Shown here: positions 7,386 through 59,985 of the stretch, piece by piece | Position numbering within the stretch: position 1 is the first letter of the stretch | How the letters are laid out: each line of letters opens with the position of its first letter | NCBI GenBank assembly: GCA_014871385.1 | Contig: CM026426.1 | Location: forward strand, 84,707,715-84,771,714 | Reading direction: 5' to 3' | Origin: Ceratodon purpureus | Lineage: Eukaryota > Streptophyta > Bryopsida > Pseudoditrichales > Ditrichaceae | Length of the DNA stretch: 64,000 nt | Position numbers and translations under genes: made by a program | The notes under the pieces: generated by a model | The model's database searches: none | What the model was told of the DNA's origin: nothing | Seen by the model: the letters and a program-made list of their open reading frames with translations, nothing else

Positions 7386-7613
7386 CTAGCCAGCCGTGCG
7401 ATGTAAAGTGCCACTTAACGAAGCCTGAGCACACGTATTGTAGTAAGCACCGTCGAGTTCTTCGAGGTGCTGTATAAGAATAAGCATCCAATTATCCTCC
7501 CTTCCAATGTCGGCGCTAGGCTCCACAACGAAGTCCGATGGGAACATGTTAAATGCTGATGGGTCCTCGTCAAGAGCTAGAATATGCCTGCCACTTAGCT
7601 CATAAGCTTGCAT
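7386..7613 (-). pseudogene. C-terminal methyltransferase-like exon
   Basis: It begins AYELSGRHILALDEDPSAF, the counterpart of the segment A...GR.xIGIExD..yF that follows motif I in N6/N4 DNA methyltransferases, where the acidic residue (here D of LDED) holds the AdoMet ribose. After it comes an acidic tail without known motif up to a stop at 7386-7388. The exon is separated from the preceding one by about 95 bp of intron-like sequence; the joining phase is not clean, which fits decay. Confidence 0.45.
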
Positions 7614-7705
7614 CGACGATCTTGTGCAGCATGGTGAACTAATGTTAGAGTTCTACATTGATGCAACTTTGCGGAAACTAAACAGTATGAGTGCATTCTG
7701 CTTAC

Positions 7706-7933
7706 CCACTGCCCAGTCAAGTCGAGAACGGTGCTCGCCTTTCCGGTGCAGATTTCAATCATAGGCTCCATAAATGCCGGAGCCTTTTGTTTGGAACTTC
7801 GATAAGACTTAGTTCCTTTACATCGCAATAGGTTGTCATCGGTCACAACATTCTCAAGCACATCCGAGGATTTAGGTTTCCAATCCATAACCTTGCTTGC
7901 AATTTTGTTGAATCGAAAGTTCACTTGGCTCAT
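7706..7933 (-). pseudogene. Methyltransferase-like exon with SAM-binding motif
   Basis: The C-terminal half reads KQKAPAFMEPMIEICTGKAS followed by TVLDLTGQW and an exon end at a GTAAG donor (7701-7705). This matches the C-terminal core of beta-class DNA methyltransferases, where K.P.LLE.LI..ST..GD.VLDPFAGSG holds the AdoMet-binding motif I. The Gly-rich turn is changed (DLTGQW). The following exon continues with GRHILALDEDPSAF as expected after motif I. The upstream half is Lys/Ser/Asp-rich without recognisable motif. Confidence 0.5.
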
Positions 7934-8080
7934 ACATCTGCACCTGAAAACCTTAGCCTTGAAAAGGCGTTTCTGTAAAGCAGAAAAAACACAGGGTATT
8001 CAGTTGCACAAAAACATTCTCATACAATTGGCATTAAATGATTTAATAAAACTTCTAGTCAGTAGAGAAGGGGCTATTAC

Positions 8081-8400
8081 CCAGGTGGGGAAAAATGGCC
8101 TGTGATTCACTACATAGAACGTCCTTAAGCACTCCCCACTCATTTATCCAAGTCCCTGACGTTAGCAAGGGCTGCTCTTCGGCAGGAACAAATAGAAGTA
8201 GCACAATCGAGTCTGCCAATATGGCCTCTGCGATGTGAAATATGGCTGGAAACGTAAGTTTCTTAACCATATTCGAGACCAGAACCTTCGATTTGTGTGG
8301 ATGGGCCGGGACGACAAATTCAGGTACTTCGGCATTGTCGAGAGTATTGCAGATTATAAGATCCACGCAATACCTACTTGCTACCTTGTTATGCATGCAA
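8081..8400 (-). pseudogene. Methyltransferase-like exon, motif IV region altered
   Basis: The segment reads YCVDLIICNTLDNAEVPEF, then a helix and a second hydrophobic strand (AEAILADSIVLLLFVPAEEQ), ending at a CCACCTGG/GTAATA boundary at 8080. In class-beta N6/N4 DNA methyltransferases the strand VDLIxxDPPY carries the catalytic motif IV, followed by a helix and the strand after the G-x-V segment. The DPPY position here reads NTLD, so either the catalytic motif is lost or I have misaligned the strand. It sits immediately before the exon with the SAM-binding motif, as expected for the permuted beta class. Confidence 0.4.
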
Positions 8401-8829
8401 ATTTTCCTATCTGCAATCAGCAATCAGAAATAATATTTGTCAAAATGACCTAAAATCAACTAGCGCCGGCGCCAGAAGTGTATCTTCAAAGAATGCAAAA
8501 TCGCTTATAAAAACAGAGTTAACGTCTCGTAAGTTAGACGGTCAAATGGTCAGTAAGCGTACACAAGAGCACATCATACGTTAGACCGTGCGAATTTTCC
8601 AAGCACAACTCTTACGGACTTTTCACGACAACAGAATGTAGCAACCAATGCAAAAAGCATCTAAACGATTATGCAGAAAAAACCCGACAACATAAGCTAT
8701 TTAAGTCGTGGCGCTAGCGCCATTCAAGAAAGACTCCTGATCAAGTTGAACACGGTCGGGAACCAATGAGCACGATGTGCCGCGGACGCCATTCGAGATG
8801 GACCGATTTGTCACGATGGAGGAGATTAC

Positions 8830-10020
8830 CTACTTGATTGCGCTCAGAAATGTAGAGAACACAGATTGATCGGTTCCTTCCAAGAAGCTTTCGATGGCAA
8901 TATTCATCAACAGTTTCACGGTAGTTTCGACGCCCTTGATAGGGAGAGCTGAAAACTTTACTTGATGAGATCCGTCTGGTCCCGGCTTTGATTTTTTCTT
9001 AGATGACTTAGTCACTGCCTTTTTGGGCACTATGGTCGCCGGAGAAAGGGCCGAATCATTGTCTTCTTTTTGGAACTGCTGCGGCTCGTTCAGTAGCCTT
9101 CGTTGCAAGTCATGATGCGACGTTCTTGGCAGATGTTGAGCTGCAGTTGCACGAGTTATGGCAATATCATCATCTTTCTGAGGTGCGCTACTCATCAAAT
9201 CGACATCCTCTTTAACATCCCTTATAATAAAACTCAAACACTCTCCACCCGATGGCTGTAGAGGTACCTCCTGCCCAGATTTTGCAGCAATTATTTTGTG
9301 CAACTCAGTAAACATTATTCGCCTATGATGAGTGAAAATCCCATTGTTAGTAATTGGAACGTACACAAAGTCTGTCGAACCGTATAACGCAGAAAGAAGT
9401 ACAGACGATATACTAAGAGAAGATTGTTCTACTGTATCAGTTCCACCATCCAGATCACCCACCAAATTTCGTGCATCTTTGATCTTCTCAAGCATAGCCT
9501 CAAGCATCTGAGCCTTCTCCGCGATCGGTGTAGTCATCATCACTTTAATCTCGTCTAAGACTTGATCGTAAAGTGCAATATCGCTGTTACCTAGAAAGTA
9601 TCGTTCACTTCCGATGCTCTCAATGTACCATCCCAGCCCCATGAGATGCTGGGAAGGTAGCTTCAGTTGGGACTACGTGAACAAACCCTCCTTTGAATGC
9701 TGAAGCGAGTCGGAAAAAACTAGAAAATTTTTTATATCTCGATCTTCTTTCTGAAGTAGGGAATGCACAACGCCGAGCCACCGCACAAAGCGTCAAACTG
9801 CCTTCACGCCTTCTATGTATGTCACCTGATCCTCCCAACATTTGTGCCTTAGAGGTCCTGCGTTTGTGGTGAAGATTCGGGGAAGTACTTCTTGAATCCA
9901 AAGACCATCACGATTTCAAAGTAATCATCAAATATTGGCTTCACTTCATCAACTCGTAAAATTCATATCCCTTCTCAGGTTTTGTCTTCTCTGCCAACAT
10001 TATAAATAATTCAAACGCCC
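8830..10020 (-). pseudogene. Long exon(s) of the ParB/methylase gene with stops and frameshift
   Basis: From 10020 a frame reads AFELFIMLAEKTKPEKGYEF, slips by one base near 9950 and continues as DEVKPIFDDYFEIVMVFGFK. Another stretch, at 9840-9640, has two in-frame stops within RFVRWLGVVHSLLQKEDRDI and the following LKLPSQHLMGLGWYIES. From 9642 the frame is open for 270 codons to 8830. The last part contains a Lys-rich linker (KKAVTKSSKKKSK, about residues 208-220 of the open part) and a hydrophobic C-terminal helix. I recognise no domain here. Position between the ParB and methylase parts suggests an element-specific middle region. Confidence 0.45.
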
Positions 10021-10215
10021 GGGTACCCATCTGCAAACCACGGTTTCATTAAGTTAGTTGTCAACAAGATATAATATCGTGGCACAGTAAAGCAGCCAAT
10101 GTAGTACAAGCCCATAAATTATGGAAGATTTAGCATATAAAAGAATGGAAAACTATGGTTTCAGGTCTCCAATGGAAGTGGAAAGCTTTTCTGTTTCTAT
10201 AATGTGTTTTTATAC

Positions 10216-10375
10216 TTGCTCCCACCAAGCTCGGCGGTTCAGCCATTTTTGAAAAGCAGCCCTGGTAAAACCCATGTCCAAAAGCAATACCAATCCTTCT
10301 CCGTGCTGGAAGCGTTTCAGTGCTTCAATACCCTTTTTATATCTACCCCTTGCACCCCAATGAGAATGCCGAGGT
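10216..10375 (-). CDS. Internal exon of the ParB/methylase gene
   Basis: One minus-strand frame reads RYKKGIEALKRFQHGEGLVL and then LLDMGFTRAAFQKWLNRRAW and ends at a GAGCAA/GTATAA exon-intron boundary at 10216. A neighbouring open segment at about 10425-10560 (NPKYHPHLTEELDYHSQ) is likely the preceding exon. Neither has a named domain. Both look like genuine coding sequence by composition. Confidence 0.45.
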
Positions 10376-11156
10376 TGTCAACTGTCATAGCCCTAGGCTT
10401 CTTACTTGAATTCCTTTGACTGTGGTAGTCCAGCTCTTCGGTAAGGTGGGGGTGGTACTTCGGATTGCACAGTCTAAAAATCTTATTCATGTAGTTGGTC
10501 TTTTCCTTTCTTACATCCTCGCTCGCATCGTGCTTTGCGTTTGCCATCAACACAGGTGAGGGTTTTTGTGTGTGTAGACATCTAGGCCTTGACAGCGAGT
10601 ATTTCTCGCTGATTAAAAGGAAGAGCATCAATAGGTCAGTGCGCAATTAATATACATCCATGTAGCGATTTTGAACCCTGACAACTAGTAAGCATCGCAG
10701 AAATCAACAAATGCGATACCACAGGGATCTGAAGTCATTTGATGCTGTGAGCAACTTATTCCATATTTAAACCCGTTCCGTACAGAATAGCAACGGTCTG
10801 AAGATGCAGCAAACCGACAAGACTTAATCCACTTACAGTTCAACACAACGAGTGCAATGAGTCCAGCCCAGGTGAAACCATTCCTATTCACCTTGAAAAC
10901 TCAAAGAACAAGAATGCAGCCAAAGCCAAGCTCGCTAATACGTGAAGGTCAAAAGACAAATCATTACCAACGTTTAATGATACACTTAAATTCAGGGAAG
11001 TCTCCCACAATAATGCAAGCATCGAGAATTATCTATCCAGACAATAGTACTCTTTTAGACAATACTATCCAGACTGACCATATTAGGAGACTGTACACAT
11101 CATAGAAATCAATTTTGCATAAAAAGGTTAAGTAGATGGATGGAGAACAAACGCAC

Positions 11157-11342
11157 CTTGAAATAAACTTTGATGACGGCATCAAACATCATTTTGTACC
11201 AGCGTCCTTTCCAGGCGTCTTTTATGCGTTCAATCTCGCTTTTGGAGAAGTAGGGTTTGTACTCCAAAGGGTCACGCCTAGCTATATGCATAACCTTATA
11301 GAGAATATGCGCGAGCTGCTTCTTCAGTCGTGTTCGACGTTC
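11157..11342 (-). CDS. Basic helical exon of the ParB/methylase gene
   Basis: An open segment flanked by a CTATAG acceptor and a GTGCGT donor encodes a strongly charged, helical stretch (RRTRLKKQLAHILYKV, then KSEIERIKDAWKGRWYKMMF). It is followed by an intron towards the left. No named domain is recognised. The base composition and charge pattern are those of real coding sequence. Confidence 0.45.
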
Positions 11343-11612
11343 CACTATAGCGACATAAGAAAATACGAATTAACGATTTGAAGCAAAGCTTAGTGTGTAC
11401 CGAGCTTCTTTTGGGGGCTCGAACAAACTCTTTGTATCACAGTCTAAGCCAGAACCGTACAAGAGTAGTGAAGTACAACTCAAATAACCCTACAACCCTA
11501 AGTCAAACAAACCTTGTGCCATCATAAAATATTCCAAACTTACGGGAGAAATATAGTTTGGCGACTATTCGCTTGCATAAGCGCGAAACAATAGCTCAAA
11601 ATTAACACTTAC

Positions 11613-11960
11613 TCATTGATGTCTCTCATGAAGTTAGAAATCCAGCCCCTGTTGGACTGGGAATCACTGAGTACAGAGCAATTGACTTTGATCGGATCTC
11701 CGTTGTGGTCCTTGATGTGTCGCATCCATGCCAATGCACGGTGGTGACCATCCCAGAGATGGACATATCAACCGATCATTGCTTCAAACAAAGTTTTATT
11801 TTCTGGATCGCTCTTGCATTTATCCATCAGGTCCAAATCAAACTTTTCAGAAAGTAATGACCATCGTGGCAAATCCTCAAAATCATTGCGGGGGAATAGC
11901 CAGGGGAACAACAGCAAGTTATCCTAAAATTTGTTCCCCAATTTCCAATATCAAACCCAT
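11613..11960 (-). pseudogene. ParB-like nuclease-domain exon
   Basis: The frame contains LWDGHHRALAWMRHI (the WDGHHRALAW part at 11726-11755), which matches the DGxHRxxA box that defines ParB/sulfiredoxin-fold proteins and binds nucleotide in ParB and sulfiredoxin. The exon then runs through a Ser/Asn-rich helix (SVLSDSQSNRGW) to a GTAAGT donor at 11611-11612. Upstream the frame reads NDFEDLPRWSLLSEKFDLDL, but a TGA sits six codons before the DGHHR box, where TGG would fit, and a TAG lies further up near 11930. In the family this domain acts in DNA partitioning, nuclease or methylase fusions. Here it is disabled. Confidence 0.55.
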
Positions 11961-13029
11961 TGTAAACTGTCTGTACGTCTATTAGCAAGGCTTGCCGAAC
12001 CCAGGTAGTGGGCATCAGCTGACATAATGGAATCTCCAACTGCAAAGACTTGATTTTTCGACTCTCCAAGTGCTTGTGAATGTTGACCTCGCTAAATTAA
12101 TTTCCCTAGAACTGCTCGAATGACGACACCGATGGGTTGGGGTCCACACTTCTCTTGATGACTTTCTTCTACGCAATATAGACATCCTCGGGCACGGGCT
12201 TTTTCTCCCCCTAGTCCATGCTTGTGCTATGCAAAACGGCAAATCAACCAAGTTAAATTTGTCATTAAATTGCAAAATCCTGATCTGGGAATTGTGGATG
12301 AACTCACAAGTGCCAAACATGTAACAAGGCATGAAATTCTGACTCGAGCCGACAACACACACCGGAGCCTAATGTGACGATACACCTTACAAGTGGCGCC
12401 GGCTCTATGAGTCTCTATATTACATAGTAAACAAAATCCTAGCATCCTCAACGCTGCAGCATTAAGTAGAAATGAACATCATAGTGCAAAAACAACCATA
12501 GATGCGGAGCCTTGAGGAAGGAGGCCGAGTCACCAAGGACAGCCCAGCAAAATCCAAAACCAAGCCAGTCACGTTTCAAGGCTCGGTATACCAGACACCA
12601 AACTGGTCCAAATGGCGCCGGCTCCATCTGCACACTAGAATTGCTAGAGTGGATCGAAAACATGAATTAAGGAGCATACCCTACTAAATAGAGAGTCCAA
12701 TAAATCAACCGCTGGTACACCAGAAAGAGGCGGAATAGATATCAATCGATAAATTGATTCCACGCTTGTATATCGCGCAATGAGCACTTCAAATTAGAAT
12801 ACCGTTCAAGTGGCGTCGGCACCATATGCTTCGCAAAGCTGCCAACTAGAGCACTAATAGAATTTGAACGTAATACCATCTCTAGAGTGCCTTTAAAAAA
12901 AACAAGCCCGAAGGACCTGGTCCAGACTGCAAGCAAAACATATGGATTTTAAGATTGTGGCTTTCATTTTTTTTGCTTGCCAGTCTGAACCACATAAACC
13001 GGTCAAAAAATAGAAAGGACGCAAATTAC

Positions 13030-13076
13030 CTGATTGAGGAACAATGCACTGGAATTCCAGCAATCACTCGACCCAC
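13030..13076 (-). CDS. Short internal exon of the ParB/methylase gene (putative)
   Basis: A 47-bp open segment reads VGRVIAGIPVHCSSIR between a TCTCAG acceptor on its upstream side and a GTAATT donor on its downstream side. The match of both splice signals to an open frame is the only support. A palindrome copy lies 48 bp upstream of it, at 13124-13137. Confidence 0.35.
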
Positions 13077-13790
13077 CTGAGATAAAGTCTATGGAAAAAA
13101 CATTTCAATCCTAAACAACGGTATGGCGCCAGCGCCATGACTATCCACCTTCGGTCACCAAGATCCAGGCATCAAAGAAAAACAAAAGCTAAAAGCTTTG
13201 AACAAAGAGCAGGATGTGTTCACTTCCGGATAGCAAGAAACTATGAAATTAAAACAATTGCCCCGCTAATAACGCTCGTGAGGCCATCGACACCATTAAA
13301 TTGCTCGGCTTGGTCTAACTAGGGCAATATACTACGGACCTTGTAGCGTTCAGTGGAGTTATTAATATCTCAAATGTGATTCCAAGCATTGTGAACAGAA
13401 TTGAGTCAACACTGACCTTATGTGGTCAAATAGCAGGTAACCGACTCGTATTACAAAAAACGGGCCCCGCTGCTTCTCGAGAAACCTGCAAGTGGATGTG
13501 GATACTATCACAAAATGACATGTGAGGGGATTCTGTCGCAACTTCTCGCGCCGTAACCCTCTAAAATGAAACGAATCCAACCCACAAGAGAGCATCAAAA
13601 GATCGATTAAAATAACGGACAGATGAATCAGTGTAATGCTTACAATCACCCGTAACAACATAAGGTGACGCGAAATAAGAATCATTGCTACCCTAGGCAA
13701 GGATATGACGCCAACGCCACAACCAACGCGATCATCGAACCAGGCAGATCAAACATCAAATCAACCATGCATATGAAGGAAGGAGCTTAC

Positions 13791-13961
13791 CACTATATCA
13801 GCCGTCGCTGGTAAGTTGCCACGCTTTCGCTTGCGACTGCCGCTCATTGTGTCCGCGCCACGCCTTCCTTTGCCAAAGCTTAATAAGGACCCCTTTGCCG
13901 CAGCCATAGTAGCAGCTGAACCATCGAGGATGCCGTCAAAGAGTAATCCACAGGACATCAT
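13791..13961 (-). CDS. First exon of the ParB/methylase gene
   Basis: An ATG at 13961 opens 57 codons ending at GTG followed directly by a GTAAGC donor at 13790. The peptide is Gly/Ser/Ala-rich and contains the cluster SGSRKRKRG near residues 41-48, a good nuclear localisation signal. The exon is phase 0. It faces the start of the plus-strand MULE-like gene at 14493, so the 531 bp between them would be a shared divergent promoter. No stop interrupts it. Confidence 0.5.
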
Positions 13962-14492
13962 TGTCCCACAATTGAACTAATGAAAATGGCTTCAGATCTA
14001 GAAGGATAAGACAAGAATTGTTCACGATCTAAACCTAATCCAGTGGGAACAGCAGGGCAACACGAGGATGGAGCACAACGTGACAATGGTACAGCTTGCT
14101 TAGGAAGATAAGGTCAACTGGACATCCCTATTTATTCTAGCGGGTTGAACGGCATTGGAGATCGTTTTAAAGTTTTGAACATTTGCGCTGTCCATTATGC
14201 GATAAGGATTTAAATGATCTCCAAGCCTCAATTCGACGGCAACGGTATAACTTTTATGATCAGCCAACCGTTTCTTTCGGAGATAGAAGTAAAGCTAATT
14301 CATATCGGGAAATTTGATACATTAGAGTTTGGTGAACAAAATTCATCTGAGTTTCTATAAAGCATGTTAGGAACCATTCATTCATGCCTTTGCTAGATCA
14401 GTCCAATACGCAATCACGAACTGCTTCGTAACGTACGTTTTCTGCTTTAAACATTTTAAACATTTTCTTATTCGTTTTAAGAGATCCTTGAG
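13962..14492. promoter_or_regulatory. Divergent intergenic region
   Basis: The 531 bp lie between two outward-facing start codons (13961 minus, 14493 plus). No copy of the palindrome is present here, although copies lie on both sides. The stretch CTGCTTTAAACATTTTAAACATT near 14440-14465 is an AT-rich repeat close to the plus-strand start. No clear TATA box can be assigned. Confidence 0.3.
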
Positions 14493-16910
14493 ATGGCAGT
14501 GTCAAGCAATTTCATTTTACGACTAGCGGGCAAGATTCAGCATTTGAAGGACTCAAGCGCTGATCCAGATATAGAAATATCCGAGTTGGAGGTCGGAATG
14601 GCCTTTAAATTGGCAGAGGGTACCATCCATATTCAGTGCATAGATGTGGAGGGTAGGCTGCGTGGAAACTATTGGCTAGAGTTGAAGGATGGCCAAGCCA
14701 TGTTTAATTTGCCGGTCGTTGATGGTGAGTTGGTCATTGTTTTTGGAGTTAAGGGGAGCTACTTGCCAACAAAGGCGCCTGGTTGTCAGGTTAAAACCCC
14801 CACTCCTATGCCCGAACTAGCAGTCGCAGACACGTCTATGGAAACTTTGAATTTTGATAGTGAGTATTCCTTTGGAATTCTGGAATTTCATGGATCATCT
14901 GTATTGCAAAATTCTAGTGCCCTGTATGGGCAACTTCTTTGTGTGGACGACTTCCCGGTTGAACCTATTGGGGAAACGGATGTGGATTTAAGAACGGCTT
15001 TACCCGCGATAGGATCACCGCAGCCTAATTGTAAGTCACCGTTTATTGGGCTTAATTGTCCATTACCTAGGAATCCACAGTCGGACCCGGATGATCATGT
15101 TGAACTTGAGACTGGCACGTTCAGGCGCCACAGTGTTCAACCCAACTTGCCGCGCAGATGCCTTCCAGTGCTTCAACGCCCAGTCCAGCAGCGTCTGAGG
15201 AGGAGAAGTTGCCATCGTTGAAGGCTTGCTCAATCATCCCGCTCTTAATGGACCTAAATGCCCGTGGCTGCACACGTGAATTTGCAACTATCCCATTTGA
15301 GGAATTTCCTAGGGTTAAATGTCAGTATTTACCAAAGGTCTACGATGGAAATCACATCTTGGAAGTTCCACCTATTGTTGAGAATGATACTGTTTCGACC
15401 AATATATCCTTTGATGGACATCCGTGGGTAAAATCAAACAGTTATAAGTCGAACCCCTTGGCCGATGCTGGCAAATGAGTTTGCATATCCTTTTGCGGTA
15501 GGTCATTCTATTGTAGGAATGACCAATGCATCCACAACAGCATTCACGGTTCCACAAATACGTTGTACTGGGAGGATCGTTGCCACGCAAGACCAAAGCC
15601 TGGGAACGCTCCAGTTGACGAGGACTTGCGGTGCGCGTTCTGTTGATGGACGCCGACATGCGTTTGTCAATGCTCGTGTGTTCTTTGGGTTGCAAGTCAC
15701 GAGTCCGATCAATATACCCGAGCTGTTGTTCACATAGGAAATCACAGCCATCCGTCTTCTCCATGCAAAAGCCGCAGTGCATATGCCAACACCATAGATA
15801 CGATACACCGTTTCTTAGCCGACCAGCCCTTGCTTATGAATGCCCCTCGTTGGGTTGGATTTCGATGTGCACACCAGAATTTCTTAGACCTAATTATGCA
15901 GTCTTCATCTGTCGAGGAGCAAGAATTACTAACGGAGGATCATCTCATGGAGCTACTCAAGAACGCACCGCCCTATCACGACAAGCGGCATGTTAAGTAT
16001 GTGGTGACAAAGTTTAGGTCGGACCAAGAGCGCTGCATCTTCACAGTGAAGAAATACTCCCTGTACATCTACATTTAGGACAGCCATTTCCCAAGTCAAT
16101 CTCAAAGAGGGGTCAAATTTGTTTTCAAAATGTCCACGAGTGGAATCAAGAGGGGCGTTGCCCTAGTTAATTGCATGACCAGCGGGGATTTAAAGGTCAG
16201 TTTTGTCATGTTCGACTATATCAAGAGAGATCACAATTGGACCACGATGGCTGCTCACGTTTACGACCATAATTCAGGGCGATTGTTAACGATAGCAGTG
16301 TGCGAATGAAGTTAATAACAAGGAAAACCAGATTAAGTTTTGAGATGTGCTGAACGAGACGGTAATTAGTAGTGGCCATACCAAGCCAAGGTTCAGAGGC
16401 TTTATGGCCGATGCCTCACGTGCAAATTAGAGTGCGGTTAAAGCGGTGTATGGGAACGAAGAGGGACTAAGTCCTGAGATTGGGGGCCAAGAACAGGACG
16501 TAAACTCTGACGATCCCCTCTTACATACATACTATTTTCATTTTGTACAGAGTATTCGAGATCACACCAACAAGTGGGTATTGGAGAAGTATCGAACCTA
16601 TCATGCCAAATTGTGCAAGCAATGGGCAGCAGCCCCGACAAACGAGGAGTTCCTTGATATTGCTGACGAGCTTCAGAATTGGTAGACGGAGTCCGGTGTA
16701 GTGCACAAAGACAACATAAGGCATATGCAAGGTTGGATGACATGGTGGATGGCACGGCGCACGCTCTTCGCACAGCACCGTCCTTAACAAGCTTGACCTT
16801 GACCTCGAAAGCGAGGCACTTATCCCAAATACAAACCTATGTGAGCCTGTTCACAGCTCAATGTGGGCTACTGCTGCGAGCGGGTTGAAAGTTAAAATGG
16901 ACTTGTACAC
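14493..16910 (+). pseudogene. MULE-like transposase gene, frameshifted
   Basis: An ATG at 14493 opens 242 codons (MAVSSNFILRLAGKIQHLKD), then the frame changes near 15150, 15475 and 15780, giving successive fragments LLMDLNARGCTREFATIPFE, NEFAYPFAVGHSIVGMTNAS and PRWVGFRCAHQNFLDLIM. The diagnostic part is 16200-16690: FVMFDYIKRDHNWTTMAAHV and, after a gap, RGFMADAS followed by AVKAVYG and YYFHFVQSIRDHTNKWV. This is the layout of MULE-type DDE transposases (D in a strand, then FMxDxxxAxxxAVxxVFP and C.FHW..). In-frame stops occur at about 16308 and 16425, and the FHW signature has become FHF. No terminal repeats could be assigned. Family assignment is by motif memory only. Confidence 0.45.
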
Positions 16911-17342
16911 TATTTGTGCTGAGGATATGACACGGTCCCTCATTAATGAATATTTGATCAATTTGAAATTATCAGAATCATTATTTTGAACAAATGGTGT
17001 ATTAAGATTGTAATGGGACAACAAAGCGGAACAAGTACGTATTTACAGTTTACAACCTCACACTTATTAGTTGCAGGTTAAAGAAGATTTAATTTTGATG
17101 CTATCATGCTTCTGCCTTGCTTTAGCAAGAAGCATATTAAATGAAAGAATGAATTTGGACCTACGATTAATGAAGATTTTGTGCGACACAGTGTCCGTCA
17201 ACAAATTTGTTCAAATGGATTTGCACTGACATAAGTGTCCAATATGATGTAGGTGTATTTGAGCCTGTGCAACTTTCTTTTCCTTTTTTTTCAAAAAATC
17301 ACGACGATAGAGTACAATATATCTAGTTCATGACCATGGATA

Positions 17343-17655
17343 TCAATCAAGTGTGTCCAAGGGGGTGACCCATATTTGTCCTGCATACGTCTCATGTGGA
17401 GCTCTTACAAATTTTAGCAATGTGTCTCTCAACCGCCAGAGCTCTAGCAATGATAGCACTTCTACCGGCAACAATAGCTCTTTTGTGGTAGGATTGCGAT
17501 GTACCGAGGTTGCCTTCGATTGAATGTAAACACTGACGTTAGCCTTAAAATTCCTGAGAGCGTCGGACTTTCCAAAAAGTGGATGTGTTGGATCAATTTC
17601 AAGCAAAGAATACCCTACACAAACCTGCTTAACAGTCTTAGTGACTGCACCTTAA
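17343..17655 (-). CDS. Unknown exon-like ORF
   Basis: On the minus strand one frame reads VCVGYSLLEIDPTHPLFGKS, then KEVELLLPVEVLSLLELWRL-like helical sequence (the actual segment is TKELLLPVEVLSLLELWRL), to a stop at 17343. A TTAAGCAG acceptor-like site stands just before VCVGYS. I do not recognise the family. It could be a 3' exon of another gene of the same large element, transcribed towards the MULE-like gene. Confidence 0.3.
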
Positions 17656-18123
17656 ATTGATAACAACAATATGATCCACAAAAAATTGCTATTGTAAATA
17701 TCACACCACGGCTTGATGAATCTACTTCATTGCATAGTACTGCACCGAGACTCAATGATTCCATTCCATACAAATGTGCCTCCCAACGTCCGAGTCGCTA
17801 AGCTACCCATTCCACAGTTTCCTCGACTATAAACTTCCACTTTTCCGATGTGGCCTAGAATCGTCGAAGTCTCTACAGTATGCATGGTGTTTCTACATTG
17901 TCACAAAATACTTGAGTCCTGCAATTCAGTGGCACCTTTAGTTTTGCTAGGATCAGATCAACGACCAAGTTGTCAGGCAAGTAGCCATTAAGAGGCATGG
18001 AAAAAGAGGCTATGGAAGTGGATGGGTTGCAATCTAACTTAAAACCGCTTATGTAGAAGATAGATAGACAGGCACTAAAGTCTCTGCAAGATTCTGTGAA
18101 CAATGCATCTTGATCAACTATGA
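17656..18123. other. Spacer with a short unknown minus-strand ORF
   Basis: A 76-codon frame at 17873-18103 (minus) contains GYLPDNLVVDLILAKLKVP and may be an upstream exon of the gene ending at 17343. Nothing else is recognisable. Confidence 0.25.
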
Positions 18124-18171
18124 TGGTGCCGGCGCCAAACGGCTATATCATGGCTGTTATTGAGGTAATAT

Positions 18172-18775
18172 GTGGATGGTACGCTTTATTCAACGGCTAT
18201 GTGCCTGGAAGATGATTTGGCGGCAAGTGGAGTTAGCATAAACTCATTAAGTTCATCTAAGGCGAGTATACGCTATCCACCGGAATCTGCAAAGCGGAGT
18301 ATATTTGAATACCATAAGACGACGGGCGGATCTTTGTTGTTGCATCTTTGCAGTCGTCGGATTTACGCCCAGTTGGCGGCTTTAGCGTCAGCTTGCCGGT
18401 TAAGCATCAATGTGACAAAGATCCGCTTTGATCTCAGTGTTCAGGATACGAATCAAACTTTTAAGTTTACATCAACTCAGATTCACACATTTTGCAAGAT
18501 GTCTCTGCTCATAGAGAGCAGCTGGGGCTTCTGCGTTCTGTTATAAAAGCCCTTTGAGGTGTTCGGTGAGGCGTGTCGTCTCTAAAGAGCTTACAATGTC
18601 TCTCATTTATCTTGTTAGTGCTTTGATCCAATATGCTTTACATACTCGCTCACTCATTCAACCAGAAGTTGGGGACATCATACTTCGAAAGCTTGAGCTG
18701 AACTCAACTGTAGAGTACTCCTTCTATGAGCACTCCGAGGGCTTTTTTTTTAGAATTGCAAAACCTGGTTGCTGA
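18172..18775 (+). pseudogene. Unknown plus-strand ORF pair, frameshifted
   Basis: Two plus-strand frames follow each other (18172-18546, 124 codons; 18554-18775, 73 codons) with a one-base register change between them. The first contains ASIRYPPESAKRSIFEYHKT, the second LIYLVSALIQYALHTRSLIQ and a hydrophobic end. No family is recognised. A TGGTGCCGGCGCCA palindrome copy stands 35 bp before the first start codon. Confidence 0.25.
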
Positions 18776-21575
18776 AAGTCATTTCCTGCTAGGTCCAATT
18801 TCTTGAATCTTTTGACGTCCTTGAATCCGCCCCTAATATGATGACTTGTATGAATCTCATGGTTCGAGAGCAAAGTGAGGGCTTTAAAGAGGATCATGGA
18901 GGCGGAATCTTAGCTCTGGAGACAATCCCGAGTGGAAACCTTTGGAATGGGTCAGCCCTGCAGTCATCCCCGCAATATGCCTGACGGAATCTGTATTGCT
19001 TTGGCCTTTGCCCAGCCACTACCTCCATTAGGTTCAACTTTCTACAAGGTAGACTTCTATAATTAGGAATATTTATGCAGGACTATTTGAGGTTGGAAGT
19101 CCTTGCCATTGTGGACATTGTGACACCTGAAGATGTCGAGTTGAGGACAATATTATCCTGGCAGCAGGCGCCCAATAACTAGACTTGCGGGGGCTCAGTG
19201 ATTAGGCAAAGGACCCCGGGCATGATTCTAACAGTCAAGGATGTCATGGTCCGAACACCAGCACTTCTTCTGGCAGCTATCTTATTTCCTCACGTAAGCT
19301 GGGACGTAGATCATGACTTCCTAAGACTTTGAGTATAAGTTTTGAATGTATAGTGTTTCCAATTTGTCTAATATCTATCAGTAAGGCGGATCACAATCAC
19401 CTCTATATAGAAAGACAAAAACTTGTCGCCGGTTTTGGTGTTTATAATCTCATGTCGCCACAATTGTATCCTGTTACATTTTAAGCGATTGTTTGTGAAC
19501 ATGATTTCTTGATCGTACATAGTTTTTCATTCGAATTCCAATACAATAAGAGAATGATCAACAATTTCTTGTTGGCGCCAATATAATAAGCTACGAATTT
19601 AGACATACTTGCTATTTCGTTGCTTTGGATTTTCCACTGAGCATCTACTGCGACAATTCCTGGATTTCATGAATTTACGGCGATTCCATCCATGACGACA
19701 CATATTGAACTTGTTGTGACTATATTGTGATTCATATTGCATTTGCTTTGCTTTGTCATATTCGCTACGACCTCAACGTATTCCTTGTGCGGAAAGAGAA
19801 TTCATTTGTACCATGCTCCTATATGTAAAGCGAGCGCATACTTTAGTTTTTTCCACGTACTTCTTTTACCAGCTCTTATTTTTGTGAAGTTTACTAGTGC
19901 CTGACCATATATAGTCCTAAAAGTTAACTAGTGGCAATTTGTGATGTTAACTAGTGCAAACCATAAGACGAGAGTTCGATGTGAGTTCTGTTAAACCGAA
20001 ACAAAGTTTTACTAGAACATAGTCAAACACATTAATGATCAGAAAGTATTTAGTATTTGTTCATCATGACTTTTTGTGTTGCGCCGTCTGGTTCAATAAT
20101 TATGATTGGGTTTGGGATATCTACGTAGCAATATGCCCTTAAAATTAAAGTCTATTTATCCTTAGCCATCAAGTGCTGTGATGGATATCTGGATCAGAAC
20201 ATTGCAATGCCATGTCAATTGTATTCACACCGACATCAATTGGCACCGCTGCCATTTGACATTCCCTAGAGACATTCAGTAAAGCATTGTCAATATATCA
20301 TTTTTCCTCAATTCCCGGGCTTATGATGATTTGCACTACTTGAATGACTCTCCTTTATTGAATATTTTAGAAGATCAAGTATGTACTTCATGAATGTTTT
20401 TGGAACTCTGATCACTTTGATTTGCGCCGGCGTCACTTGGCATTGATCAGTTTGCTTCAGCTTTAAATTGTGGTTTCCAAAATTGAATTGTCTTGTTGAT
20501 TGTAAAGTATAAGGTCATTTTTCAAATTCGGAAAATTGCGTTTTAGAGAAGTCGAAAAAAGCCTGAAGTCCGGGTTGAACATGGACAATGAGATCCATCT
20601 ATATAGCTATTTTAACTAACTTCAACTTGTGCCAATGGACAAATGTAAATTTAGTTTATCAGAGTCCGTAGATGTCACATAATCTTGAAACTAGATGAGA
20701 AACTTTGTGCCGCAAATGTGGTTTCACATTCATTTTTTCAAATGCTAGATCCATACTTATTATAGTAGTATATTTGAAGTCATGAGGAACCAAAGCTGAA
20801 TAAGTTAATCCTATTGTACCAATGAAAATTCAATCAATTCTAAATTAGGGATTTGATTAGCAGTTGAAACGTTGTGAGTATGGTAATTTGCTAGTAAACA
20901 TTACACCGAATTTTGAGAAATATTGAAACGGTCTCGCATAGGATTCAGCTATAAATGAATTTATTCAGACAAAAGTTTACATTGTTGCCATTGATAGAGA
21001 TATTGATTCAGGCATGAACGTATCCGATATCATATAAAATATATAATAAGCAAAATATGAAGGATACAATGATAGGATCTTACTACTTTAGACCTCTAAA
21101 TTGTTATATATCAGTGTCCGTGTTGGACAATTATCCTTGTGAGTAAATAGATATGCCTGACGCCTCATAGTACCATGCGCAAACTTTAGATTATCGGCAA
21201 CATCATCAACTAAAGGCCGACGTGAGCCTTTTGCATCTATGTGCATGTCGATGTTGAGTCCTGGATCATGTTCTCACAGGAATCGTCTTCCAAGGACGAC
21301 GAAGTGCCAATATGCTCAGAAAACCTTCGTTTTGGTATTTTGGACGGAAACCCAAAACTTAGCATCCAGAATTGCAGAAAGATTTGGTTGCATCTAATAT
21401 TACAACAAGTTTGCTACGTCCCAACGCGAGTGTCGAGGCAAAAGATGTGACAGAAATACCCACAAGGTGATGTAATAACTTCTTTTGCGGGAAAGCTAGT
21501 CCACCACATCCCACACCTCCATCCATTTTTAGATGTACAATATGTTGGGTCGGGAATCCTTGATGACAGTGTTAA
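18776..21575. other. Gene-poor stretch with palindrome copies
   Basis: No frame above 70 codons and no recognisable protein. It contains palindrome copies at 20241-20254 and 20422-20435 and a half copy at 19573-19580. Probably decayed non-coding part of the same element. Confidence 0.3.
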
Positions 21576-22100
21576 CTAGATGTAATCTTGATGATTACGC
21601 AGAGTCTTGAGGGTTAGGCCTTTCTCGGCTTGCAGCTCATGCCACTCCTTGCAAAGCATATCAATCTCTTCCTCTACATCAGGTATTAAGAGAAGAACGG
21701 AATGATAAGATTTAAAACCATTCATGTTACGGAGAGCCAGCTTGGCCAGCGCTCTGTCCTTTGTCAACTGAGGCAATTGCGCCCTTAATTTGGTCAATTG
21801 TTCAGTTCGAACGGCTGCTCCATTGGAAATCAAATGAGAATGGCTTGCCAACACTAATGCATTCTTCATAGACTTTTGGCACAATAAATAACGCGAATGT
21901 GACGTACTCAATATATCTTCAACTACCTGTAACGGGTTAGTACCTCTGCGGTCCTCCGTGAGTGTATTCTGCCAACGAGAGAACTCCAGCTTGAGCTTTG
22001 CCAACCGAATTTGTGCTTTAGTTAGTTTCCTCCCTCGTTCATAAGTTATGCAATGCTTGTGGTAGTGTATCAAAGTTATTCTTAGAGTTATTGGGCCCAA
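21576..22100 (-). CDS. Unknown helical protein of 174 residues
   Basis: A single uninterrupted frame encodes an almost entirely helical, Leu/Lys/Gln-rich protein: GRKLTKAQIRLAKLKLEFSR, a central basic/helical segment (LTKLRAQLPQLTKDRALAKL) and an acidic end (DVEEEIDMLCKEWHELQAEK). The heptad-like spacing of Leu suggests a coiled coil. It lies inside the palindrome territory between gene-poor stretches. I recognise no family. It may be the tail of a larger spliced gene, because the first 20 residues look unlike the rest. Confidence 0.4.
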   Translation of the reverse strand: MGPITLRITLIHYHKHCITYERGRKLTKAQIRLAKLKLEFSRWQNTLTEDRRGTNPLQVVEDILSTSHSRYLLCQKSMKNALVLASHSHLISNGAAVRTEQLTKLRAQLPQLTKDRALAKLALRNMNGFKSYHSVLLLIPDVEEEIDMLCKEWHELQAEKGLTLKTLRNHQDYI

Positions 22101-24300
22101 GATGAATCAGATTACTCATTGGCATAGTGTACCTATCAATGGACTATAGGTGTAAATTCCTATTGAAACTAGTACTTTGATCTATATCAGCAATGTTTAT
22201 ATTGCTCAAAAACTAGATATCTGGTTTGGTTAAGCCGAAATGCTCACACTTTATATGATAATATTGAACAAACTTTGAATCATACGCGTTCATATTTCCA
22301 AAGCATGATTCAACATTCATATCAAATGGCGCCGGTGCTAACCACGTACTTATTAGTCATTAGAAATTAGACATTGATGGCACTTTGGCATCATGTTGGA
22401 CTACATATCGCATCGTCGTACCATTCTTGAGCTTATTATAGGACGTGAATAAGAAACAAAAAGGGATTGCATTTTTTTTGGTTGAAAATGATGATTTGGA
22501 CGTTATGCATTTATCATACTACATTGCATCATTATGCAGTTATATTGGTAATTTTGAGATTTGATGCACTTACAATAGGATATTTATTTATTTCTTGAAT
22601 TCGTGAATAGTAGATTAATATTGCTGACAGTTGCTAGAATTCAGGAAGCGTCGGTTCCCCATTTTTTTGCGCAAGCGCCAACCAATGGCATGCTAGATGG
22701 CATACTTTGTATACTTCTAAGTTGTGCAAGAGGCTTATTCAAAGTCCAATAGCAAAGTTGCAAAGGCCAACAGCAATGAGGAGCATCTAAAATAGACGTC
22801 CAGACAAGTTTTGGATTAATGAACACCGCGTCATCTTATTGTTAAACCACGATATTAAATAATCGAGTTCATGGTGCACATATTTGCCGTTACTGCTGCG
22901 TATTCCCATTCCAAGTTAATTGTGCAAATGTTTCATTCATTTAAAACGCATCGAAACTGCAAATATAAGCGGTGTTGATCAAGTTGTGAAATGGGTAAAC
23001 GGTATTCATTTTAGTACTAGTGTTACGTGTCTACTCCAAACTGCGACAAAACTTGACACATGGACATATAATGGCAAACCACACATGATTGAGTTCATAT
23101 TTGTTGTCCATTTATTTAATGCTTAATGGTCAAAGTCGTTCTTGCAACAATTTACGGATAGTTGTGCCAATCACATGAACCGCTCTGTCGTGATCCCTTT
23201 GTAGCCATATCGAAACACTAGTACAGAACCTGGCATTTTTCATTTACTATTTTGAGGATTATGCACGATGTTGAGTAGAGTTGGTCATACAGGACACGAA
23301 AAAGAGCACTTTTTGCGTTCTCGCATGTGAGAACTTAGAAGCGACAAGTTTAGAAATGAAAAATGACAGCTTTTGAAGAGATGGGTTTGGAAATCGGTTT
23401 AACAATGAAGTAGGGGATAAAAAAATGCCTGCATCCATTTTTTAGCATGCACGACAACCATTTGTTTTTTTAAAATTCAAAGTTCTACAAATACATTGAA
23501 GAAGTCAAGAAGTCATTCAAGGAGGGAAAAAAAGAAGTAGATCTCCTTGTGTTTGTGACTTTTCAGACAAAGTGGTGGAGGCTTTGGAAGATAAAATAAG
23601 GACTCTACAAAAAAGCTTCCAAGATGAGGAGAGGATATCCGTAGTTGTGCATCCAGAAAGAGATGACAAAATCCAACATAAAGTAATATTGGAGCGCAAC
23701 ATAGGAGAAATCCATTTTGATTTGCGTAGAGCCTAGGATAAGTACAATAAATTGGCATTGAGATGGGCCAATCTCCATTTCCAGATTCATAAAAAACATC
23801 ATGAATTTTCTATATAGACAAGCCAAAATAAGGTATCAATGGATATGATGGAGCTTCAAAGACTTCTACAGATCCCTTGAGGAGATCCCAGCATACACAA
23901 ACAAGGCCGTCAAATTGCGTTGAAAATGTACAAAATGATGGGCGGGGGCACGTTTAGGTCAACTACAAGATATCTGCAGACGAGTACGCTGCGCATAGCA
24001 AACCCTTTTGTGGAGAAACTGTCAATAGAGTACGAGCCTCTCCTACCTTTGATTTATTCATACAAGAATCATCTTCCAATATATTCTTTATATTTATGCC
24101 CTAAATAAGTTCATGATGCGTTTGAGGTGCCAAGGGAGCTGGGAATTTGAGAAGTATTTTGAAAGGATGATATATTCATGCGCGATGGAAAGCCATAGCA
24201 AATGGCTCCAACGCCACATGATTCACTGAGAAATGAGTGTCTTTAATTGTGTCCTGATTTGCAAACTTCTGCAATAATAGTTCTTGATAACTGCTACATG
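22101..24300. other. Gene-poor stretch
   Basis: Short frames only. Palindrome copies lie at 22327-22340, 22667-22680 and 24203-24216. No recognisable gene, tRNA or terminal repeat. Confidence 0.3.
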
Positions 24301-26098
24301 AAACTTAATGATAGCAACACTTGGTGCCTTGCTAATTGTCTTGTTGCAAATGAGGGGTGCACACCCCTTAGATTTGTCAAGTTTATTTTTTTTATGCAAA
24401 ATTGTTAAAGCGCCATCTCGCAGAGCAAGAGGCGCATTGTCATGCATATTATGCTGCACGGTATCTATCAATCCAAAGGCACGGCCGGTTACTACATATA
24501 ATACATGATAAAATGAATCATTCCAAGATAGCTTCACCATGCTTTGCAACCGAAAACAAAAACACCAATGGGCTGATGAAACTTCCTGTATTTGTAACGG
24601 ATATGATAGCGTAAGGTCATGGCAATGTTTGATTTGCTCATTACGCTCTTGATTTATACAAGGCTGAATCAAATCATATTGTTGGCTCCAATGCCAGACT
24701 TCTTTAAGATCTTGAGCAGCCTGAAGCATCAACTATTGGCCGCCAGTTTTACAATTCTGGAAGGAAGCCGCTTTTTAGCGCATTGCCGGGAGAGTAAAGA
24801 AACTTGCATTGAAGCTTTAGACAAATCAGGGGCATCTACAGATGCAAGTCCTCTACCGCGGTTCTTCATGTCCAACTTGACAACTGTTGGAAAGACTACA
24901 AAAGTAGGTTTGTCTTCTGCTACTAGTCTCTTCTTGTTGCAAAAGGCATTTTTGAAGAGGTTTTTGTATCGTTTCTTCTTTGCCGGTCACACACATGAAG
25001 ACATCAACACCTCTATTAAAAGGTGGAGCATGAAACTAAGAGAGAATGATTATCCTACACTACACTCTCTAATGCAGTCTTACATGAACATCGACGAGAA
25101 CTGTAGGAAGGTTATTCCCCATTTGATTGAGGAGGTTCCTGGCTTCAAGGAATTTGTTGAGCCATACATTGATAAGGATGGAGACAAACTTATTGGGCAC
25201 ACTAAAGGCCAGCAATTCAAGTTCTCCATGCGTAATGGTGAACCAATTACGCAATTAAAGATTTAGTGCACGACAACCTGTCGAAGCCTAGCAAAGGAAT
25301 AAAACTATGGAGTACTGACATGGTAGGAAAGCAAATGTTGCCCAATGGAGAGCCGTTCGCTGCCGTTCCTATTGCAATGCGAAACAAAGACAAAATTGTG
25401 AAGGGACTGGCAGGATTTATTACCTATTGGGAGTCACTAGCAGCACAAGATGAGTCGAGAAATTATCTTGCAAGGCACAGGCGCCTTATTACGTATTGGA
25501 TGACCGTAAGGAACGCGCATATGTTACTGGCTTCTACTACGTTACCGTCGCGTGAACACATGGACGGATTTTGGCCCACAACTCGAGTTCATGAGGAAGC
25601 GAGAGATATGTTCAATGGTGAGGGAGGCGTAAAGGAGGAGTTTGATGTTGACGACCACTTCATTGGGCTGGCAGGGGAAAGCCACAGCCTTCATTTTAGG
25701 TTGCCCGAGATTGTGCAGAAGGATTCATACTTCTGTTGCGCCTTGGAGAAAGTGAAGAAGAGCCTAAACATGTGTGGTTGGCACTGGTTCTTTCCAACCC
25801 AAAGCTATCATCAACAAGTGAACACTATAAACACATTTATGTCTAGTATTTCACACCTCTCAAGAAGGACCGCGAGGTGCAGGATTTATATCGTGGATGG
25901 GATATCAGTGGGAGGTGTGCATTGAGGTGGAGAGCTAACTTGACTCAGCCACCGTGTTGGGTACACGCGGACTCAATATTGACCGTTTGGAGACCTCGAG
26001 CTGGAGCTCTTAATATTGGCATCCCATCTTTGCAAATTGCAATAGCCAAGGATAATTTGGATTGGTGCTCAGAATCTAATTCGGAATCTCATGCATAA
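24300..26098 (+). pseudogene. DUF7869-type gene, broken copy
   Basis: Successive frames carry conserved pieces in the right order. HIIHDKMNHSKIASPCFATE lies at about 24490-24550, QLDNCWKDYKSRFVFCY at 24873-24923 followed by a TAG, then SLLVAKGIFEEVFVSFL. After a one-base shift comes FAGHTHEDINTSIKRWS (GHTHED at 24985-25002). The QLDN...GHTHED pair is the hallmark of DUF7869 proteins, which are repeated, transposon-like genes in several eukaryotic lineages; the acidic and His residues may form a metal centre. The C-terminal half continues in another frame at 25266-25925 and ends ALNIGIPSLQIAIAKDNLDW at 26098. At least one stop and three frame changes make it non-functional. Domain name is from memory of the motif. 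Confidence 0.6.
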
Positions 26099-31269: not shown

Positions 31270-31860
31270 ACAAAAATTTAATTATGTATTCATTGTGAGA
31301 AGAATCGGGCATTAAGGTTCAAACCTTGTCCAAAACTTCTATAAGCATACAATGGAGTATCCAACATGGGATTTTGATTTACATCTACTATACTAGGACT
31401 TGGTGCACTATACATGCCAGGGTGAGGTTGTGCATACACAGGTTGCCTAAAATCTGAATTGCCCTGACTAAGAGGAGTTCCATACTGGGGTTGGGATTCA
31501 GGGATGCATTGTGAATCGGTCCAATATCCCCCATGAGCATCATCTGCATGATCAACACAGTTGTAGTTAGTACACCGCAGCCTAGAGTACTAGACACATG
31601 CACATATGATGCTGAGGAGGAAAGAAAATCATTCGGGACTCTGCAGCGACCACCTACTAAGAGATCGAAAGAACCAAACGCAGCAATATAGAAAACAGAA
31701 CCTGCTACAAAGAGCAACGACGACGACGTGAGAAGTGACTGTTTAAAATAAAAAAAACCAATGCAGATAGCAGGGAGAAGAGACGTCGAAGCATGACTGC
31801 ATCGTATAAAAAAAAAACAGTCTTGAACCAGCGACTGAACATGACTGCATGGAGCGAATG

Positions 31861-31901
<41 letters not shown>

Positions 31902-33605: not shown

Positions 33606-33813
33606 CGTGGCATTGACCAGGTGATGGAGGGGAGGTAGCGTGAGGACCTTCTCTCCCTGCAAATGCCCAAAATGTGGCGAGAGCGGGCCAGAACTAGCGA
33701 GGCACGGCAAGGTGGCGAGGGGGTTGGCGACTGTATTGGGGCGGTAATTTTTTGGCGGGCCCGCCAAGAGCCGTTGGCGAGGGCCGTTGGCGAGCCCATT
33801 GGGGTTGCTCTAA

Positions 33814-55449: not shown

Positions 55450-55976
55450 ATGTTCTGTGTAATCTTTGAGCGTAAGATTCTCATGAGATCTATTGTCTAT
55501 TTAACTTAAATTTCTGACCTTCAGAAGATACTTTCGTACTAAAGACTGGAATTCGTAGTAAGATAATAAGTTGTTGTTCAAGGCAGAGAGTGAGCAAAGA
55601 CTAAGAGATTGTTTCAAATATATACATATTGGTAATTAGTACTGCATTGTCCCACAACAGTTTTGGTAACTAATTATCGTCATTGGGATTGAATAGTGGC
55701 CGTATTTGGAGAACTAGGTAATTCCACTGATATTGTGGATGTATCAATTCATGTAAAATATGTGTCTTCTGTAATCAAGAGCACTTCGACTCTGCATTGA
55801 CTTTTAAAATTTTAGTTTGTGCATTAGTAAAAGTCTACAGAGATACACAATTGATAGTTGACTGATTTAAATTACTAGAACTGCTATGTGATTGAGTTCC
55901 TTTGGTGCAAGATTTTAATGTTTTTTTTTTAATGTTTTGATAACAGTACAGGTTCTGAGTGATAGAGAGGGTTAAA

Positions 55977-59805: not shown

Positions 59806-59863
<58 letters not shown>

Positions 59864-59929
59864 GTATATATTCATTATTTTTTTAAATTATATATGCCTC
59901 TTATAACTTTTTGAATATATAAATATAAA

Positions 59930-59985
<56 letters not shown>

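Follow-up and report, generated by a model that had tools for sequence, protein, structure and literature searches.

The 14-bp GC-rich palindrome TGGCGCCGGCGCCA, which recurs within the window (that is, the whole 64,000-nucleotide stretch of Ceratodon purpureus DNA analysed here), clusters in giant transposons of one Mutator-like (MULE) family, whose elements (43-47 kb in the two delimited copies) carry about 30 palindromes each, spread along their length; the window itself holds an old, decayed and broken copy of such an element. Judged from its sequence, the palindrome has the marks of a dyad-symmetric, predicted protein-binding site. The explanation favoured here, which stands about an even chance of being right, is that it is the dispersed putative site of one dimeric DNA-binding protein that is dedicated to this family, encoded by the element and anti-silencing in its role.

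Distribution of the palindrome

A mismatch scan of the window finds no exact copy of the palindrome, four copies with one mismatch (8461..8474, 12613..12626, 13124..13137 and 18124..18137), five with two (8709..8722, 12394..12407, 12811..12824, 20422..20435 and 22327..22340) and six with three (8778..8791, 13706..13719, 20241..20254, 22667..22680, 24203..24216 and one at 29653), all without an assigned strand. The resulting nine copies at two or fewer mismatches and 15 at three or fewer, the latter to be compared with a mean of 0.40 and a maximum of 2 in 100 shuffles, agree with the preliminary description, which had counted nine and about 14; the starts at 12394, 12613, 12811 and 13124 likewise bear out the spacing of 200-310 bp that it gave for the 12.4-13.1 kb region. 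Its claim that the palindrome is confined to this territory is correct for the window, where 14 of the 15 copies lie within 8461-24216, but fails for the genome, which contains 793 exact copies (versus 0 for the reversed control) and 2942 places at two or fewer mismatches (versus 870). In both of the checks that had been proposed, against shuffled sequence and across the whole genome, the palindrome comes out well above its control.

Among the 50 exact places listed, all of which are on contig C1, 47 fall into four clusters, and these clusters contain all five of the C1 transposase loci among the 32 loci scored (out of 3839 candidates in the transposase search). Two of the other three places lie in element-derived fragments; the third, at C1:26581174, is unexplained. 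Over the part of C1 that was listed, then, the palindrome is not evenly spread. Of the stretches lying upstream of another eight transposases (L025-L032), seven contain a site at three or fewer mismatches, from which, together with the genome totals, we infer that the palindrome also clusters on contigs beyond C1.

Giant transposons and the broken copy in the window

Both ends were located for two elements: element B, of 47,117 bp, is bounded by the 9-bp target-site duplication (TSD) ATGTTGCAA, and element E, of 43,008 bp, by the 9-bp TSD GCCCCATGG; MULEs have duplications of 8-11 bp (mostly 9), and both of the elements with two ends read have one of 9 bp. The terminal inverted repeats of E agree at 32 of their 35 outermost bases, those of B at 20 of the outermost 28. 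For copies A, C4 and C8 the left end alone was located; A and C4 share sequence that extends past this end and are therefore not independent insertions.

Within the TSD bounds lie all 32 of the sites at two or fewer mismatches in B and all 28 in E, with none in the flanks (2.9 kb and 15.0 kb, respectively) and with only 0.06 (B) and 0.10 (E) in dinucleotide shuffles; at three or fewer mismatches, 37 of 37 sites (B) and 33 of 34 (E) are inside the element. The sites skip the AT-rich core, in which a check for tandem repeats found only short ones, and are absent from the terminal repeats, in keeping with the earlier view that they are not transposon ends. (Separately, the low GC of loci L011-L012 comes from 10 kb of consecutive N.) The preliminary description had also excluded both a longer transposon and a tandem array: the site is indeed repeated in its own right and without tandem arrangement, but its copies lie throughout transposons of 43-47 kb. 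Nor are the copies fragments of a single short repeat, but nearly all of those that could be placed belong to one family of very long transposons. Their flanking sequences differ, as had been claimed, apart from some related flanks inside copy C, and a tandem array or short repeat was rejected on this ground.

The elements encode a MULE-like transposase of about 1500 aa, a multi-exon gene in which some parts weakly resemble ParB and others a methylase, and further genes that are RING-like or of unknown kind. Their likeness to MULEs lies in the 9-bp TSD, the terminal inverted repeats, a DDE-like pattern and a CxC..CxH SWIM-like C-terminus. For the transposase this likeness is a motif reading, namely of MADAAPANYNAV and CxC..CxH, which we take to be the DDE-like and SWIM-like pattern of MULE transposases. 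The elements differ from MULEs in their 43-47 kb, in their many genes, and in that the pieces of B scanned (DDE-like, cysteine-rich, SWIM-like) match no Pfam-A transposase model at E values up to 10; whole ORFs match none at E 0.05. Copies that share the palindrome have transposases that are 55-62% identical, the transposase core is strongly conserved across the family, and the SWIM-like CxC-Xn-CxH C-terminus, which has no Pfam match, is invariant in pattern in all three aligned copies. In viral contigs, two short peptide patterns confirmed no transposase relative. The clusters and the RING-like genes had raised the idea of an endogenous giant virus, which was dropped after TSDs and terminal repeats were found, given that a TSD-bounded transposon explains the clusters; the NCLDV major capsid model PF04451 has no match in the genome, its control likewise matching nowhere.

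The copy in the window starts from a left terminal-repeat-like end (AAGGACAACCTTTCGGAGTGGGTCGTTTCGGGTG..., 5826..5860, plus strand), which was recognised by end comparison, has a candidate 9-bp flank GTTGATGGA and has TTTCGGAGTGGGTCGTTT in common with both ends of element E; the partner (right) end was not found within the window. On the minus strand follow remnants of the ParB/methylase-like gene: exons 6-7, with a motif X/I-like region (7407..7978; tblastn against element B gives 79% and 47% identity); exon 5, with a motif-IV-like CNTLDN (8078..8417; comparison with better-kept copies); and, by element comparison, exon 4, whose frame is broken (8815..10033), exon 3 (10213..10571), exon 2 (11148..11333) and the ParB-like exon 1, with a DGHHRALAW box and internal stop codons (11612..12120). 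Between this gene and the transposase is a small-gene remnant (13821..13964, minus strand) of which 48 aa align with element B at 44% identity. The MULE-like transposase itself (14484..17082, plus strand; piecewise 42-80% identity to element B) is broken by frameshifts and stops, its N-terminal, cysteine-rich and DDE-like regions being matched and its C-terminal SWIM-like part unmatched. Further remnants are those of gene N (17346..17992, minus strand; 43-50% identity to L006:7291-7770 and L006:7819-8166), gene Q (18527..19170, plus strand; 27-30% identity to L016:5086-5934) and a coiled-coil/RING-like gene (21336..22100, minus strand; 29-36% identity to L005:7807-8718, L009:8260-9195 and L014:9165-9998). 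A second coiled-coil/RING-like gene of this element family, with an open frame of 389 aa (55959..57128, plus strand), is 32% identical to L007:593-1795 over 382 aa and may be part of either the same copy or a second one.

Architecture of the site and constraints upon it

When TGGCGC-Nk-GCGCCA is sought at one or fewer mismatches in 170 kb, the spacer k = 2 occurs 90 times and each of the 12 other spacers (within 0-12) 0-2 times; a flank preference for C/G at -4, a purine at -3 and A/T at -1 is alike across three groups of copies. In a 17-kb stretch of copy A that is aligned with B, all 12 sites have a B counterpart at two or fewer mismatches. Site identity between A and B is 0.958; the figure for noncoding 14-mers outside the sites (8168 of them) is 0.593, rising to 0.731 in their GC-rich subset of 294. 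Of the 12 sites, 10 are kept at 13 or more of the 14 positions, versus 27% of GC-rich non-site 14-mers. Site 11636 of B corresponds to a gap in A, and site 7349 has three mismatches in its A counterpart; there has therefore been some site turnover. All eight in-ORF sites in four transposases encode MAPAP with the alanine codon GCG in 16 of 16 cases, while GCG accounts for 83 of the 400 alanine codons of those ORFs (the 16 site codons included). As this codon choice shows, the sites within transposase ORFs are constrained at the DNA level, also at synonymous positions. A Helitron hairpin was rejected in that the palindrome has no fixed flank or end beside it; so was an RNA hairpin or terminator, a DNA site being a better fit to a fixed half-site sequence and to sites inside ORFs.

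This constraint bears on who reads the palindrome. A GC-rich palindrome with three CpGs could suit host factors, and the exact site at C1:26581174 is without element homology; nonetheless, it is extremely unlikely that the sites are recognised by the host, for example by a repressor or insulator protein targeting the element. Sites through which a host repressed the element should tend to disappear from it, whereas the well-preserved copies keep theirs, synonymous positions too, and it is the sites of the broken window copy that are more mutated (mean arm mismatches of 1.50 versus 0.76 in well-preserved copies).

Position within the element is likewise informative. In B, 29 of the 32 sites are outside mapped coding sequence (exons and introns being assigned by conservation, not from transcripts), and some are near genes, two of them (18743 and 18953) ahead of the RING-like gene and one (18267) directly after the transposase. 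Such sites would suit a transcription-factor or enhancer function, in which a factor encoded by the element or the host would co-regulate the element's genes by binding close to each of them. This is quite improbable, however, in view of the sites in probable introns and within the transposase ORF, and of the number per element (about 30), which is many for promoters. Alternatively, the palindromes could be internal transposase-binding sites that aid the assembly of a very long element for transposition, as the family's strongly conserved transposase core might allow. Subterminal repeats of CACTA elements are the comparison case--En/Spm, of the CACTA superfamily, has repeated short TnpA binding sites that are subterminal only--but the moss sites are spread rather than subterminal, lie outside the terminal repeats and skip the AT-rich core, which makes this function very unlikely.

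The ParB/methylase-like gene and known systems

The preliminary description likened the palindromes to parS-like sites or sites to be methylated, and proposed to see whether they coincide with ParB/methylase and MULE-like genes. These genes do neighbour each other in the same element: in A, B, C, E and the window, the five copies examined, the ParB/methylase-like gene adjoins the transposase. The palindrome does have the dyad marks of a protein site, as do parS and many methylase sites, which are palindromes. Furthermore, the first exon is strongly conserved, with a WDGNHRA box that is invariant in nine aligned sequences (L025, identical to L014, and L032, with an internal stop, were left out). 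Reading of the palindrome by the ParB/methylase-like protein, in contrast, found no support. A PHROG ParB-like partition family matches weakly (E 0.09-0.36) in all three copies scanned, and the box reads DGNHR where CTP-binding ParB has its characteristic GERR. The copy C counterpart of the window's exons 6-7 piece matches PF01555 (N6_N4_Mtase) at E 0.0058 and 17.0 bits, under the curated cut-off of 26.7; the methylase-like part of copy B matches it at E 0.062, and a phage DNA methyltransferase family matches at E 0.074; these matches, too, are weak. The same methylase-like piece is scored as well by an unrelated NCBIfam beta-glucuronidase model (E 0.0037), which was set aside as a chance match along with phrog_34256 (E 0.016-0.32) and TehB (E 0.11-0.14). 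At motif IV, expected in methylases to be [DNS]PP[YFW], all four better-kept copies (A, B, C and E) read CDTPDN and the window CNTLDN, so that the beta-class N4/N6 methyltransferase motif is present in none of the five. The predicted structure of the ParB-like exon was set aside for its low confidence (pLDDT 43); solved-structure searches gave no meaningful match.

It is unlikely that the palindromes are loading or modification sites of the element's ParB/methylase-like protein, which would then cover the whole element with a coat or a chemical mark and in this way protect, cluster or segregate it. The resemblance to ParB-parS consists of a palindromic site and a neighbouring gene with a ParB-like box; the differences are the number and spread of the sites (about 30 throughout a transposon), a box that reads DGNHR rather than GERR, and a eukaryotic genome. 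The boldest form of this idea--a giant eukaryotic transposon that marks itself, its roughly 30 parS-like palindromes being loaded or modified by its ParB/methylase-like protein so that the 45-kb element with its AT-rich core forms a chromatin domain of its own--is decidedly improbable. Were this protein the reader, we know of no such eukaryotic system, and among the papers listed by the literature searches there is no report of one.

Under the favoured explanation, that of a dimeric protein dedicated to the family, a sequence-specific protein encoded by the element would bind the palindrome as a dimer. Because the roughly 30 sites per element are spread over probable introns, intergenic stretches and low-complexity coding parts, such a protein could distinguish the element from host DNA over most of the element's length; once bound, it would most likely keep the element open and expressed, by analogy with the anti-silencing VANC of Arabidopsis VANDALs. 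In the passages cited, VANDALs are described as MULEs with extra genes, whose element-encoded VANC causes loss of DNA methylation, and the short motifs recognised by it (YAGTATTAY for VANC21) as scattered over introns and over noncoding DNA between genes and at the termini (PMC5735166; PMC10398659). The moss elements are similarly MULE-type, have extra genes and carry a short motif dispersed in noncoding parts, the motif itself being different: a 14-bp GC-rich palindrome with a 2-bp spacer and without tandem arrays, whereas VANC targets are often tandem. They differ also in their length of 43-47 kb, versus several kb, in having terminal inverted repeats, and in a motif common to copies with 55-62% identical transposases; among the subset of element ORFs and exons scanned, none has a VANC-type domain. 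Spm TnpA and MuDR MURA are described as linked with demethylation too, and in this respect En/Spm, through its element-encoded TnpA, offers a further likeness (PMC10398659).

How a transposon discriminates its own DNA from that of its host is an open question, to which VANC of the Arabidopsis VANDALs is one worked answer. The giant moss element apparently embodies a separate solution, in the form of a 14-bp dyad that is sharply defined, strongly conserved and common to diverged copies.

Genomic distribution of the palindrome and its host element

Within the window, 15 sequences match the 14-bp GC-rich palindrome TGGCGCCGGCGCCA with at most three mismatches (none exactly, four with one, five with two and six with three), against a mean of 0.40 in shuffled sequence, which bears out the enrichment claimed in the preliminary description; 14 of the 15 lie at window positions 8461-24216. 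Across the genome searched (362.5 Mb in 151 contigs, of which the window's contig, C6, with the window at 84707715-84771714, accounts for 110.5 Mb and is presumably one of the Ceratodon purpureus sex chromosomes), the pattern occurs at 2942 places with up to two mismatches, versus 870 for the reversed pattern, and exactly at 793 places, versus none. An even spread through the genome, named at the outset as grounds for abandoning the idea of a dispersed unit, was not seen in the listed part of contig C1: among the 50 exact places listed, all on that contig, 47 sit in four clusters (at 0.69-0.72, 20.26-20.36, 21.76-21.81 and 27.65-27.67 Mb). Two of the other three lie in element fragments (about 265 bp at 74% and 1.16 kb at 81%); for the third no element homology was found.

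Comparison of 20 stretches of 10 kb (17 from the C1 clusters and three around isolated exact sites) indicates that the clusters have a gene set in common, in a partly colinear order, and copy-to-copy comparison located the ends of the element that carries it. Element B occupies C1:21762802-21809918 (47,117 bp), with ATGTTGCAA flanking both sides; element E occupies C1:675407-718414 (43,008 bp), with GCCCCATGG flanking both sides and terminal repeats that match at 32 of the first 35 terminal bases. Nine-base target duplications and terminal inverted repeats are typical of Mutator-like elements (MULEs). A 9-bp duplication is given for several groups in PMC6446971. At up to two mismatches, all 32 sites of B and all 28 of E lie inside the element (flank read: 2.9 kb for B, 15.0 kb for E), whereas shuffled elements contain 0.06 and 0.10, respectively; at up to three mismatches, 37 of 37 and 33 of 34 do. 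Since the palindromes of B and E sit within elements of 43,008-47,117 bp bounded by target-site duplications, the earlier claim that no longer transposon is involved is not supported. Both elements contain a palindrome-free, AT-rich core of about 7-9 kb (17-35% G+C; B, C1:21.785-21.794 Mb, fetched stretches L015-L016; E, C1:695-702 kb, L006), in which tandem repeats are short only and no open frame of at least 140 aa was found.

The cluster at C1:20263685-20360783 contains tandem copies, with near-identical transposases at 20300239 and 20346178 (45.9 kb apart); it also includes 10 kb of N, most likely a gap in the assembly. One copy carries a repeat some 400 bp long (L009:815-1201) that recurs, 76-82% identical, at dozens of genome places, and in the 27.65-Mb cluster an open frame (L020:4220-5251) that matches plant self-incompatibility protein S1 (E = 1.3e-5) is perhaps a captured host gene.

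Element genes and the broken copy in the window

The largest open frame of the element is 1482-1603 aa long, except in copy C, where it has 1456 aa. It is rich in cysteine near the N terminus, contains a DDE-like stretch and ends with CxC-X18-CxH, which is how MULE transposases are laid out, but a Pfam search with it matched no model. Its relatives occur at at least 32 places (32 of 32 scored), three of them 100% identical, so that the family has recently moved or duplicated. Adjoining it on the opposite strand are several conserved pieces, probably exons, of a ParB/methylase-like gene. The first contains a WDGNHRA box, invariant in nine aligned sequences, and gives weak ParB-like matches (E = 0.09-0.36) in all three copies scanned; later pieces resemble N4/N6 DNA methylases (PF01555, E = 0.0058 in copy C, under the curated cut-off, and 0.062 in copy B). 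The methylase-like piece also matches an unrelated NCBIfam model (E = 0.0037), and where the N4/N6 motif [DNS]PP[YFW] is expected all four copies have CDTPDN. This gene would be the candidate for a ParB/methylase-type marking of the element at its palindromes, which we consider rather unlikely, though it is the main rival to the anti-silencing role discussed below. The element also encodes proteins with middles that by eye are coiled-coil-like and with weakly RING-like ends (E no lower than 0.0026), and further genes without an assigned family.

The window's copy has, at window 5826, a left end similar to those of E. What is left of its ParB/methylase-like gene occupies 12.1-7.4 kb and what is left of its transposase 14.5-17.1 kb; pieces of a small gene, of genes N and Q and of a RING-like gene also survive, and the series reaches 22.1 kb. 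These remnants are interrupted by stops and frameshifts, and their order is in part rearranged. The 14 sites in this copy have a mean of 1.50 arm mismatches, versus 0.76 in 124 sites of other copies, and C>T or G>A accounts for 20 of 29 site changes, versus 66 of 142; such decay would be expected of methylated DNA without selection. Elsewhere, positions 59000-64000 are very AT-rich (the final kb has a G+C fraction of about 0.12), adjoin an element-family RING-like gene (55959-57128) and could represent an AT-rich core in opposite orientation, from either this copy or another one. A separate PIF/Harbinger-looking transposon lies at 29956-33767. It has two open frames, one of 437 aa for a Plant_tran transposase (E = 1.5e-85) and one of 463 aa for a NAM-associated/Myb-like partner (E = 2e-15). 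At 24619-25263 there is an open frame with DUF7869 (E = 1.6e-10).

Architecture and conservation of the sites

When all spacers from 0 to 12 were compared in the 170 kb surrounding four copies, TGGCGC-Nk-GCGCCA (one mismatch allowed) was found 90 times at k = 2, against 0-2 times for any one of the other twelve. For 89 sites there was enough flank for analysis, and 79 were left once related flanks were removed: the central dinucleotide is CG in 47, CA in 14, TG in 10, GG in six and another in two, and symmetric preferences, similar across groups A+B, C and E, reach position -4. The fixed spacer and the shared symmetry look like those of a site for a dimeric protein, with a single conserved reader predicted to recognize the palindrome.

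Over a 17-kb alignment of copies A and B, all 12 aligned A sites (at most two mismatches; the 40 kb of A has 21) have a counterpart in B, at a mean identity of 0.958, versus 0.593 for 8168 non-site noncoding 14-mers and 0.731 for the 294 GC-rich ones among them; identity of 13/14 or better is reached by 10 of the 12 sites versus 27% of those 294. Some turnover is implied by two sites of B: opposite 11636 copy A has a gap, and the A counterpart of 7349 carries three mismatches. Within the transposase frame, where it occurs two, two, three and one times in A, B, E and C, the palindrome encodes MAPAP in a poorly conserved linker; the alanine codon there is GCG in 16 of 16 cases, versus 83 of 400 alanine codons overall in these frames (those 16 included), which suggests that the DNA itself is under selection.

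Site placement and a possible anti-silencing role

The sites lie in probable introns, between genes, downstream of genes and in linker-coding DNA; in B, whose exons are partly mapped, three of 32 fall inside mapped coding sequence. Neither promoters alone nor transposase binding at the ends accounts for this scattered placement, which suits a protein that needs to find the element along its length. VANC21, the anti-silencing protein of the Arabidopsis VANDAL21 element, binds YAGTATTAY at intronic, intergenic and terminal noncoding positions of that element and brings about a loss of DNA methylation across it (PMC5735166, PMC10398659); its motif and the palindrome are alike in being dispersed through introns (probable ones in the case of the palindrome) and intergenic DNA. 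Among the open-access papers listed on MULEs, bryophytes, Ceratodon and ParB/methyltransferase combinations, none reported such an element. The placement of the sites and the VANC21 precedent together favor element-encoded anti-silencing, to whose full statement we give an even chance: a protein encoded by the giant element would bind the palindromes all along it and, in the manner of VANC21, would counter the silencing of its DNA.
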